Shown: positions 9,154 to 12,897 of the stretch, piece after piece
Layout of the letters: each line of letters starts with the position of its first letter
Numbering within the stretch: the first letter of the stretch is position 1
Origin: Methanorbis furvi
GTDB lineage: Archaea > Halobacteriota > Methanomicrobia > Methanomicrobiales > Methanocorpusculaceae
Assembly (NCBI RefSeq): GCF_032714615.1
Contig: NZ_JAWDKA010000002.1
Location: forward strand, 62,001 to 126,000
Direction of reading: 5' to 3'
Length of the DNA stretch: 64,000 bases
The notes under the pieces: model-generated
The model's database searches: none
What the model saw: only the letters and a program-made list of their open reading frames with translations
Told to the model about the DNA's origin: nothing
Translations under genes and position numbers: made by a program

Positions 9154-9696
9154 CGTTCTTACCTATCCTGAGTAGCCGCCTGATTGACTCGAGTGGAAAA
9201 CATAACCGGAAAAAGACGGGAATCAAATACAAAATTGCATGAAAAATGACACAAAAACGAATCTAAGATCTCAAGCGAACGAATGGTATTCAACCTCCTG
9301 TACTTTCTGCCGTCTGTCTTCAGGCACTCTGCCTTTCAGATATACGACTTTCCTATAATAAATGGAGAGATTAACATTTATACCTGTCGGAGGGGATGAA
9401 TTTACATGCGTCCTGTGTGCTCCGTGGGCGAAACGGAAAAAAATACACGATACCAAAAAACAACAAAAAACAAAAGAGGCTGACCAACCCCGAATCGGGT
9501 TGGGGTATTCGGGGCAGTTGAGTGTGAATCCTGCCCCGCGTGAATTATAGTATTTTATTTCGTTGGAATATCTGAGTCCTTTGTACTCCGTGGGATGGCA
9601 CCGGGAATCTGAGTGTGGGTTGGTGTGGGTTTTTTTTTCCCGGGCCGTTTGGTGTAATGTATGGAAACCTTGTGTAACTATGGTAGCTGTCCTGGT
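9154..9696. other. 543-bp stretch without a recognisable gene
   Basis: It separates the start of the coiled-coil gene from the 3' end of ftsZ. It contains the inverted repeat CCCCGAAT (9488-9495) / ATTCGGGG (9507-9514) and A-rich tracts near 9425-9475 that would be oligo-U in an ftsZ transcript. Short ORFs here show no ribosome site or familiar protein pattern. Confidence 0.6.
9488..9514 (-). terminator. Hairpin and T-rich tract downstream of ftsZ
   Basis: An 8-bp perfect stem (CCCCGAAT/ATTCGGGG) is followed, on the minus strand, by T-rich DNA at 9430-9475. This is a plausible end for the cdrS-ftsZ transcript, although it is about 180 bp past the ftsZ stop. Confidence 0.4.
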
Positions 9697-10866
9697 TCAC
9701 ATGATCCAGTCAAAGCTTGAACCGCTGCGTGCAGTTGCAGCATTGCCTGACGAAGAGTGTGATGCGGGGGACGAAGACTGGGCATAGTTGAAGCCGCTGC
9801 CGCTTGACTGAGAGGGTTTGGATGCCAGGTTCACTGAGTGGCCGCCGAGAATCTGCGGGCTCTGGATACCGGTCATGATTGCCATAACAGACACCTTGCC
9901 CTCAAAGTCCTTGCGGACACGTGCGCCCCAGATAACATCTGCGTGCGGATCAAGCTCATACGTCAGCTGCTGGGCAATCTCCTCAGCATCATGGAGCGTA
10001 AGATCATTACCGCCCGTGATGTGGATCAGACCGCCGGTTGCGCCTCTGAAGTCGATGTCAAGAAGCGGGTGTGCAAGACAGTCGCGGATAACACTCTCAG
10101 CCTTGTTCTGCTGCTTGGACTCGCCGACCAGCATAACTGCAAGACCGCCCTTGCTCATGATTGCACGGACATCTGCGTAGTCGATGTTGATTAAGGACGG
10201 CTCAGTGATCGTCTCAGAGATTCCTTTTACAGTCTCTGCAATGATCTGGTCCATCACGGAGAAGGCCTGACCGAGCGGAAGGTTTGGAACAAAGTTCTTC
10301 AGTCTGTTGTTGTCGAGAACAATGACTGAGTCTGCTGCCTGACGCATTGCCTCAAGACCATCCTCTGCCTTCAGCATTCTCGCACGCTCAACCTGGAACG
10401 GGTAGCTGACCATTGCAATAACAATAGCTCCGTGTTCCTTTGCAATCTGTGCAACAACCGGTGCAGATCCAGTACCAGTTCCACCGCCCATACCGGCAGT
10501 GACGAACACAAGGTCTGCATCCTTTAAGATCTCTTCAAGCGTCGGTCTGGCCATCTCTGCGGCACGGCGACCAACATCAGGGAAACCTCCGGCACCAAGA
10601 CCGCGGGTCAGGGACTTGCCGATAAGGACACGCTTGTCTGCCTGAATCATGTCCAGGTGCTGCTTGTCGGTGTTGATTGCAATTGTTTCAGCACCGGCAA
10701 CCTTCATGTTGTGCAGACGGTTGATGGTGTTGTTTCCTGCGCCACCGCATCCGACGATCACAATTCTTGGCTGTCCAAGCATGTCGTCATCGTCAACGAT
10801 GGAGGTCTTCTGCATTCCCTTTTCAAGTTCTGAATTTTTTAATGCCTCATTAATAATACTCTGCAT
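9697..10866 (-). CDS. ftsZ: Cell division protein FtsZ
   Basis: FtsZ is the tubulin-like GTPase of the division ring. The 389 residues include the GTP-binding signature GMGGGTGTG at 125-133, an upstream VGCGGAGNN loop at 38-46, and the T7 region [11 protein letters not shown] near 230 that activates GTP hydrolysis. A Ser/Ala/Gly-rich linker follows, ending in FDWIM, the conserved tip used by archaeal FtsZ proteins to bind partners. A ribbon-helix-helix gene of the CdrS type lies 29 bp upstream on the same strand, the arrangement known from other euryarchaea. Confidence 0.97.
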
Positions 10867-10895: not shown

Positions 10896-11084
10896 TTAAA
10901 GTCGTACGTCGAATGTGGATACCTGGTCACTCTCACGAATAATCCGTTCACTTCTGCCTGCGAGAAACTCCCTTACGGCGTATCTGACGGCTTCAGATAC
11001 CGTAGGAAACTCCCCAGTTTCTACAAGTTTCTCCAGTAGTTCCACCTGCTGCGGCGGTAAACGAATTGTGATTCTGTCCATCAT
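10896..11084 (-). CDS. cdrS: CdrS-like ribbon-helix-helix regulator of cell division
   Basis: A short ribbon-helix-helix DNA-binding protein of 62 residues: strand [11 protein letters not shown], then two helices with the [14 protein letters not shown] signature. The frame stays open upstream, but GGAG five nt before ATG 11084 fixes that start. In haloarchaea the RHH factor CdrS lies directly upstream of ftsZ2, controls division genes, and is conserved widely in Euryarchaeota. Here it sits 29 bp before ftsZ in the same direction, so the assignment rests on family plus synteny. An array of 11-bp-spaced repeats lies just upstream of its start and may be its own operator. Confidence 0.85.
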
Positions 11085-11091
11085 AACTCCA

Positions 11092-11153
11092 TTCAGACAA
11101 TTGTCAGTCATTCGTCTGACATTTGTCTGACGTTTGTAAGACACTCGACTGAC
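11092..11153 (-). promoter_or_regulatory. Six-copy 11-bp-phased operator array before cdrS-ftsZ
   Basis: Seven-mers related to GTCTGAC begin at 11092 (TTCAGAC), 11103 (GTCAGTC), 11114 (GTCTGAC), 11125 (GTCTGAC), 11136 (GTAAGAC) and 11147 (GACTGAC), exactly 11 bp apart, separated by 4-nt A/T-rich spacers. The palindrome GACAATTGTC lies at 11096-11105. One-helical-turn spacing is what cooperative ribbon-helix-helix dimers use, so CdrS autoregulation is the leading inference. Confidence 0.7.
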
Positions 11154-11189: not shown

Positions 11190-11203
11190 CATATATAGAT
11201 ATG
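11190..11203 (-). promoter_or_regulatory. TATA-like box for cdrS-ftsZ
   Basis: On the minus strand the sequence reads ATCTATATATGG. A start about 25 nt downstream would be near 11170, placing the repeat array within the first part of the leader. Confidence 0.45.
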
Positions 11204-11296
11204 GATGCCTGACCAGAAAGATCAACTAAGAAATATTGCCTTTCTGCAGTGTATTTATGCCCGTGCGTTGATAGTAGTAAGCAGGAATTTAAGAGT

Positions 11297-12307
11297 ATGG
11301 AGAGAAATTTTCCAAAAAAAGCTGTGCATGGAGGAAAAGCCCAGGAACTACGGCGTACGTTCGGCCACGAATTTCTTGACGTGAGCGCAAGTATGAACCC
11401 CTATGTTCCGGCATTTTCCGTCGATTACTCTTGCGCGGACCTCTCTATCTACCCTGACGACAGCTACATTGAACTAAAAGAAAGCATCTCACGCGTATTC
11501 TCAAGAAATACGGATGAAATTTGCGTCGGCAACGGATCTGCGGAGCTCATACGCGTGTACTGCCACACCCTACTCAAAACCGGTGACATTGCAAGAATTG
11601 ATCCTCCGACATTTTCCGAGTATGGCCTCTCGGCAGAACTTGCCGGAGCAGATGTCCGTTCCTGCGGACAGTTGCACGGCCAAAAGCCAAAGGTCAGATT
11701 CATCTGCAACCCGAACAATCCCACCGGAACACTCCTGTCAAGAGATCAGATGCAGACCGAACTCGAGCTCTGCACACACGATGGAACAAAACTTTTCGTG
11801 GATGAAGCGTTCATGGACCTCTCCGAGCCCGAAGACTCGATCACGGACCTGCGGTCTCCGGATCTTTTCGTGATGCGGTCGCTGACCAAATCCTTCTCGG
11901 TGCCTGGCATCAGATTCGGGTTCGGGTTCGGCGATCCGGATCTTATCGCAAAAATTGAAACCGCCCGCACGCCGTGGACGGTGAACGCATTCGCCGAGTA
12001 TTATGCCAAACTTGCGTTCGCTCACTATCATGAACTACGGGAATCTGCGCGCAGACTTGCGGAGGAGCGTGACTGGTATTATGCCCGTCTGAGGGACCTC
12101 GGGCTGAAGTATGAAGAGTCAACAGTCAATTATATTCTCATCCATCTTGACCGTGACGCAGCTCACTTCACCAGAGCGATGATCGACAAAGGCATTCTTG
12201 TCCGCGACTGCACCTCGTTTGGTCTTCCAGGAAGCATCCGGGTGTCGGTTGAGACGAGGGAGAAAAATCTCCGGGTGCTGGAGGCAGTTGAGGAATGCTT
12301 GCGCTGA
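11297..12307 (+). CDS. cobD: L-threonine-O-3-phosphate decarboxylase-like aminotransferase-fold enzyme
   Basis: CobD makes (R)-1-aminopropanol phosphate, the linker of the cobamide nucleotide loop. The 336-residue PLP protein has the histidinol-phosphate aminotransferase fold with CobD-like features: the early AVHGGKAQEL and LDVSASMNPY segments and the PLP lysine in RSLTKSFSVPGIRFGF. I start at ATG 11297 because the CobD family begins about here; the frame stays open upstream to 11249. It overlaps cobY by 13 bp, which favours cobamide synthesis over histidine synthesis. Confidence 0.85.
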   Translation: MERNFPKKAVHGGKAQELRRTFGHEFLDVSASMNPYVPAFSVDYSCADLSIYPDDSYIELKESISRVFSRNTDEICVGNGSAELIRVYCHTLLKTGDIARIDPPTFSEYGLSAELAGADVRSCGQLHGQKPKVRFICNPNNPTGTLLSRDQMQTELELCTHDGTKLFVDEAFMDLSEPEDSITDLRSPDLFVMRSLTKSFSVPGIRFGFGFGDPDLIAKIETARTPWTVNAFAEYYAKLAFAHYHELRESARRLAEERDWYYARLRDLGLKYEESTVNYILIHLDRDAAHFTRAMIDKGILVRDCTSFGLPGSIRVSVETREKNLRVLEAVEECLR

Positions 12308-12897
12308 TTCTTGCCGGCGGCGAAGGGTCGCGCCTGCGGCTTGGGGAAAAAGCGCTGGTGATGGTGCATGACCGGCCGATGATCTCCTGGGTGCTGGATG
12401 CGTTTGCCGCGGCTGACTGTGAACCGCTTGTGATCACTTCGCACAAAACACCGTTCACGAGAAACTGGTGCCGGGCAAACGGTATCGACTTCCTTGACAC
12501 AGCCGGAACCGGCTATGTGGAGGATCTCATTGAGGCGGTGGAGATGACCGATGAAGAGGGCCCGCTCTTTACCTCGGCAGCAGACATCCCCTGTCTCACC
12601 GAGAGCATTATCTGCCGCATCCGTGCGGCACATGCCGAGCACGGGCTTCCTGCATGCTCAGCCTGGGTACCGGTCAGCAGGTGCGAGGCCTATGGCATGC
12701 AGCCCCGCTACTGTGAAACAGTCTGCGGTGTTGCGGCAACACCCTGCGCTGTAAACATACTGACCGGCAGTCTGATTGGTGAGGCGCAGGAGGAGTTCTG
12801 TCTCCTGCTTGACGAGCCGGGTCTTGCATTCAATATCAATACGCGTGAAGAGCTTGCGGTGCTGGAACGTGAGTTCTATACAGTGCGTGGGTTGTGA
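12295..12897 (+). CDS. cobY: Adenosylcobinamide-phosphate guanylyltransferase (archaeal CobY)
   Basis: CobY activates adenosylcobinamide phosphate with GTP before the lower ligand is attached. The 200-residue protein has the nucleotidyltransferase start ALILAGGEGSRL, a conserved Lys in GEKALV, and the TSAADIPCL segment typical of CobY. It is the archaeal non-orthologous replacement of bacterial CobU. Translation is coupled to cobD by a 13-bp overlap. A long family-A palindrome follows. Confidence 0.9.
   Translation: MLALILAGGEGSRLRLGEKALVMVHDRPMISWVLDAFAAADCEPLVITSHKTPFTRNWCRANGIDFLDTAGTGYVEDLIEAVEMTDEEGPLFTSAADIPCLTESIICRIRAAHAEHGLPACSAWVPVSRCEAYGMQPRYCETVCGVAATPCAVNILTGSLIGEAQEEFCLLLDEPGLAFNINTREELAVLEREFYTVRGL

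Follow-up and report, generated by a model that had tools for sequence, protein, structure and literature searches.

The window, by which we mean the whole 64,000-nucleotide stretch of Methanorbis furvi DNA that was analysed, carries on its minus strand a cdrS-ftsZ operon in which a TATA box, six slots of a repeated 7-mer, a GGAG sequence and the cdrS start codon follow one another in this order. The initial annotation had regarded the first gene of this operon as encoding a CdrS-like ribbon-helix-helix (RHH) protein and had placed the repeats between a TATA-like box and the cdrS ATG. Both assignments hold: CdrS is here a single-domain RHH_1 protein (E = 2.7e-8) encoded directly upstream of an FtsZ2-type gene on the same strand, and the array lies between a TATA box at 11190-11204 and an ATG at 11081 or 11084. 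The features are as follows, with the promoter, the ribosome-binding site and the slots read from the sequence, and the genes identified from an open reading frame and Pfam matches.

11190-11204, minus strand: TATA-box region of the cdrS-ftsZ promoter, CCATATCTATATATG
11147-11153, minus strand: slot 1, GTCAGTC, promoter-proximal, strongly conserved in the order
11136-11142, minus strand: slot 2, GTCTTAC, degenerate in most other genera
11125-11131, minus strand: slot 3, GTCAGAC, a full match and among the most constant slots
11114-11120, minus strand: slot 4, GTCAGAC, a full match that covaries with slot 5 across the order
11103-11109, minus strand: slot 5, GACTGAC, covarying with slot 4
11092-11098, minus strand: slot 6, GTCTGAA, adjoining the ribosome-binding site, with the first half GTC in 95 of 95 six-slot leaders
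11087-11090, minus strand: ribosome-binding site GGAG of cdrS
10896-11084, minus strand: cdrS, small RHH_1 protein (open reading frame; Pfam RHH_1, E = 2.7e-8)
9697-10866, minus strand: ftsZ, FtsZ2 type (Pfam Tubulin and FtsZ_C)

The start codon of cdrS is ATG 11081 or ATG 11084, likely the former, which give proteins of 61 and 62 amino acids, respectively. In the beta-strand of CdrS, residues R3, T5 and R7 (R-x-T-x-R, the DNA-reading strand) are nearly invariant among 146 CdrS proteins. The FtsZ protein of the window shares 67-69% identity with the FtsZ2 proteins linked to cdrS in haloarchaea and 45-47% with haloarchaeal FtsZ1, and the closest named FtsZ loci are mostly those of Methanocorpusculum. 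A GC-rich inverted repeat (CCAACCCCGAATCGGGTTGGGG) is located downstream of ftsZ, at about 9481-9510. In three Methanomicrobiales genomes (G001, G140 and G153), we found no CdrS match and no full FtsZ2 match, only FtsZ1-like genes. A joint loss of cdrS and ftsZ2 is possible in these genomes, and because G153 has an FtsZ2 fragment, an assembly gap may explain that one.

At 11298-12897 of the window, an aminotransferase gene, divergent from cdrS, is followed by a nucleotidyltransferase-like gene. The idea that the array is the operator of the aminotransferase gene was rejected: a homologue of this gene is found upstream of cdrS in 8 of the 63 long loci, only in the Methanocorpusculum group among the loci examined, and the array is present throughout. 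It remains with cdrS where the divergent neighbour differs or the aminotransferase gene is missing.

The six 7-mers occupy positions 11092-11153 and begin at 11092, 11103, 11114, 11125, 11136 and 11147, the same six starts and the same exact 11-bp step that had been claimed for GTCTGAC-related sites from a first reading. On the plus strand, they read TTCAGAC, GTCAGTC, GTCTGAC, GTCTGAC, GTAAGAC and GACTGAC, matching GTCNGAC at 5, 5, 6, 6, 5 and 5 of six positions, which gives a sum of 32/36. The runner-up set of six slots at an 11-bp step in the remaining window summed to 21, the maximum in 60 Markov-simulated windows was 24, and no period from 8 to 15 other than 11 gave a six-slot sum above 24. 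Each site is a near-palindrome, GTC-N-GAC, and GTCTGAC and GTCAGAC are therefore one site seen on opposite strands. Because the operon lies on the minus strand, the numbering runs from the promoter-proximal slot 1 (11147-11153) to slot 6 (11092-11098). With six conserved, near-palindromic boxes that are helically phased at 11 bp in the promoter of an RHH gene itself, the array conforms to the pattern of an RHH operator. A coding repeat was ruled out, since an 11-bp step is no multiple of a codon; furthermore, an in-frame stop codon occurs at most 87 nt upstream in 112 of 128 leaders. When a wider regulon was sought in this genome and its genus, the patterns occurred at about the control rate except for the cdrS array.

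Is this arrangement retained in related organisms? Counting pairs of sites that match GTCNGAC at five or more of six positions, we found that 667 of the 717 pairs in 89 distinct Methanomicrobiales cdrS leaders were spaced at multiples of 11 bp, compared with 0.05 site pairs per distance in shuffled leaders. Further genomes enlarged the set to 128 leaders, and 95 of these extend over six slots; the leader sequences are related, and these counts do not represent independent events. The spacers between the slots diverge, the 11-bp register being kept. Constancy is highest in slots 1, 3 and 6, and slot 2 resembles the site chiefly in Methanocorpusculum and is degenerate in other genera. Arrays of similar or greater length also occur in other families of Halobacteriota methanogens (e.g., loci L137 and L144), and some other Halobacteriota methanogens have a partial array only (e.g., loci L139 and L143), so that the periodicity upstream of cdrS-ftsZ is conserved through the Methanomicrobiales and beyond. 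The missing conservation among close relatives that the initial annotation had named as refuting its reading was not observed. A strict 20-mer pattern proved too narrow for the order, matching 10 genomes only, and no 11-bp dyad was found upstream of the methanogen FtsZ1 genes.

The TATA box of the window lies about 37-41 bp before slot 1. A TATA-like match 34-40 bp ahead of slot 1 is present in 96 of 126 leaders from its relatives, and the median distance from the TATA-like match to the start codon is 113 bp. In Archaea, the distance from the TATA box to the transcript start is usually ~26 bp, which would place slot 1 near +10 and let the array fill the predicted 5′ leader. An array downstream of the TATA box had been considered suitable for roadblock repression, and this geometry holds across the 126 leaders.

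We propose, from these sequence features, that the array is very probably the place where CdrS binds to control itself and FtsZ, and that it is probably an ancestral autoregulatory operator through which CdrS exerts negative feedback on the supply of FtsZ2, with CdrS probably acting as a roadblock repressor. Each GTCNGAC near-palindrome would accommodate a single CdrS dimer, and with sites 11 bp apart, neighbouring dimers would be aligned along the same side of the helix. The row of dimers, which would cover the leader between about +10 and the ribosome-binding site, would then block RNA polymerase, such that more CdrS would mean less cdrS-ftsZ transcription, and this feedback would set the supply of FtsZ2. 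CdrS binding in this organism, its cooperativity, and repression rather than activation are what we infer, the latter two from the spacing and the position of the sites. As a model, the complete autoregulatory switch suggested by the initial annotation is supported.

The direction of this control deserves caution. In Halobacterium, the activation of ftsZ2 during early log phase is weaker when CdrS is lost (PMC7439475). This does not point to simple repression and constitutes our main doubt; in Haloferax, ftsZ1 falls upon repression of cdrS-ftsZ2 (PMC8406309). CdrS might thus activate or time cdrS-ftsZ expression from the same array, with no repression. We consider this unlikely, in that both the TATA box and the predicted start precede the array. 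In Haloferax, activating CdrS sites are found upstream of promoters, and repression is the usual effect of archaeal regulators that bind downstream (PMC8406309).

The link to CdrS is supported, if indirectly, by more than the proximity of its gene, because a motif and a spacing are shared, at the sequence level, with genes bound by CdrS in ChIP experiments. In Haloferax, ChIP-seq identified 18 CdrS sites, including sites upstream of ftsZ1 and dacZ (PMC8406309). Upstream of haloarchaeal ftsZ1 (10 genomes), we found, in nearly all cases, two GTCNGAC-type 7-mers at an 11-bp step; the pair precedes the start codon by 45-50 bp and is followed by an AT-rich stretch that resembles a promoter. When 20 whole haloarchaeal genomes were searched for GTCWGAC-N4-GTCWGAC without regard to genes, 36 sites were obtained, compared with 0 for the reversed pattern, and several of the 36 are at ftsZ1 and dacZ, both of which are CdrS ChIP targets in Haloferax. 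The published MEME motif of Haloferax CdrS is given in figure 4C of PMC8406309; our dyad was matched to CdrS via the target genes. In 40 non-haloarchaeal genomes, there were 8 exact sites of the same dyad, 7 at cdrS and 1 inside an epimerase-like gene. According to these counts, haloarchaea have the dyad at several genes, and in methanogens it is almost confined to cdrS. Two of the haloarchaeal dyads (L257 and L271) precede genes that, judged from their translations, seem to encode an actin-family and a ParA-type protein; we predict, from the motif, that both genes are new CdrS targets.

The order of iterons, a gene for a small DNA-binding protein and a tubulin-family gene is reminiscent of tubC-TubR-TubZ and parC-ParR-ParM. 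The array might by analogy be a centromere-like element, on whose iterons CdrS is bound and contacts the tubulin in a partition-type apparatus. The chance of this seems to us almost negligible: the FtsZ of the window is an ordinary chromosomal FtsZ2 with an FtsZ_C domain, not a partition tubulin, the haloarchaeal dyads are located at ordinary promoters, and we know of no contact between CdrS and FtsZ.

The cdrS leaders of haloarchaea carry a variant, GTAAGAC-N4-GTCTTAC, near the predicted transcript start (with N5 in some, e.g., L314), and further copies of GTAAGAC and GTCTTAC precede the cdrS start codon. The variant was found in leaders L145, L148, L150-L152, L154-L156, L196-L205 and L314-L321. 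With at most one mismatch, it occurs at cdrS in 10 of 12 haloarchaeal genomes, two of the 12 having one extra site elsewhere, with one mismatch. The cdrS promoter is not among the entries of the Haloferax CdrS ChIP table (PMC8406309), which counts against the reading of the array as a CdrS operator, although the sites in that leader are of the variant type. In Halobacterium, by comparison, the cdrS promoter is the sole reproducible ChIP peak of CdrL, a further RHH protein for which the only reports are from Halobacteria (PMC7439475), and we infer that the GTAAGAC/GTCTTAC variant likely belongs to CdrL.

Could the methanogen array also be bound by a protein other than CdrS, either another RHH protein or an unrelated factor, as CdrL appears to bind in haloarchaea? 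The CdrL peak at the haloarchaeal cdrS promoter (PMC7439475) and the similarity of the CdrL strand, K-x-T-x-R, to that of CdrS would speak for this; however, CdrL is reported from Halobacteria only, and the methanogen GTCNGAC is the motif found at CdrS targets, from which the haloarchaeal leader differs. Such a binder is therefore improbable in our opinion. Keeping to CdrS, we tentatively speculate, at somewhat less than even odds, that the array is the ancestral operator by which FtsZ-based division in Halobacteriota was autoregulated, and that upon the acquisition of CdrL by haloarchaea the leader shifted from GTCNGAC to GTAAGAC/GTCTTAC and its operator went over to CdrL, with CdrS keeping the old motif and coming to act at ftsZ1, dacZ and other promoters. 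If true, this would mean that a division circuit was rewired by the hand-over of an operator between two RHH proteins.

A further complication concerns slots 4 and 5 (11103-11120 in the window and the equivalent columns), which often read AGCAGAC-N4-GTCTGCT and covary across the order: 82% of cells are paired, versus 77% in shuffles, and there are 46 double changes, versus 27, the shuffles ignoring kinship in both cases. This covariation is not predicted by independent sites and counts against a simple CdrS-operator reading; both a symmetric DNA dyad and a small RNA hairpin would fit. In locus L166, the GTC/GAC consensus is absent, and slots 4 and 5 together make up a long, perfect inverted repeat.

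The covariation, together with the observation that the folds of individual leaders are better than those of shuffled sequences (z -1.9 to -6.7), would be consistent with repeats that act in the leader RNA, as hairpins controlling translation or stability. This we judge to be highly improbable, in that the exact 11-bp register includes non-pairing slots, the centre base is freely A or T in several slots, and the haloarchaeal motif is located upstream of promoters and thus outside the transcript; moreover, RNAalifold gave no consensus fold on the aligned leaders, and comparison of the leader with Rfam gave no match to a known RNA family. The strong single fold of a Methanoculleus-type leader (z -6.7) had also raised the idea that slot 2 pairs with the ribosome-binding site and thereby controls translation. 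This idea was rejected, because, over 26 lineages, pairings within a lineage were no better than pairings across lineages (p = 0.57), which indicates no coevolution of the two elements.

CdrS, the cdrS-ftsZ2 operon and RHH autoregulation in general are already known. The leader array, its conservation and the contrast between methanogen and haloarchaeal leaders were not found in any report within the open-access literature searched, which is an incomplete set, and a literature search for the 7-mer returned nothing relevant. The array is a precise candidate operator, conserved from methanogens towards haloarchaea, and bears on how archaea set the amount of FtsZ. It yields a predicted CdrS motif and a list of targets for haloarchaea, and offers a case, open to test, in which a cis-regulatory site may have passed from one regulator to another.

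How does this putative operator compare with known systems? The bacterial and phage RHH repressors Arc, MetJ, CopG and omega are small dimers that bind phased near-palindromic boxes, tandem or paired, at their own promoters, often cooperatively; the operator predicted here is longer, lies downstream of the TATA box and belongs to a cell-division operon. SegB and aCcr1 of the Sulfolobales are, like CdrS, archaeal RHH proteins tied to the cell cycle, and SegB has sites at its own promoter; unlike CdrS, SegB reads TCTAGA-S-TCTAGA, and the two proteins act on segregation or CdvA-based division, not on FtsZ (PMC12284271). CdrL comes closer, being an RHH regulator found exclusively at the cdrS-ftsZ2 promoter, where the leader 7-mers are of related sequence and spaced at 11 bp, but it differs from CdrS in having a zinc-ribbon domain, in being reported from Halobacteria alone and in its presumed sites, GTAAGAC/GTCTTAC (PMC7439475). 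The closest counterparts are the CdrS proteins of Haloferax volcanii and Halobacterium salinarum, which are likewise small RHH proteins encoded directly upstream of ftsZ2 (PMC8406309, PMC7439475), and the dyad of this array is also present at haloarchaeal ftsZ1 and dacZ, both CdrS ChIP targets in Haloferax (PMC8406309). Whereas the targets of CdrS in haloarchaea are numerous and have one dyad each, placed upstream of the promoter, the organism studied here has a six-site array within the leader of cdrS and hardly any dyads elsewhere.
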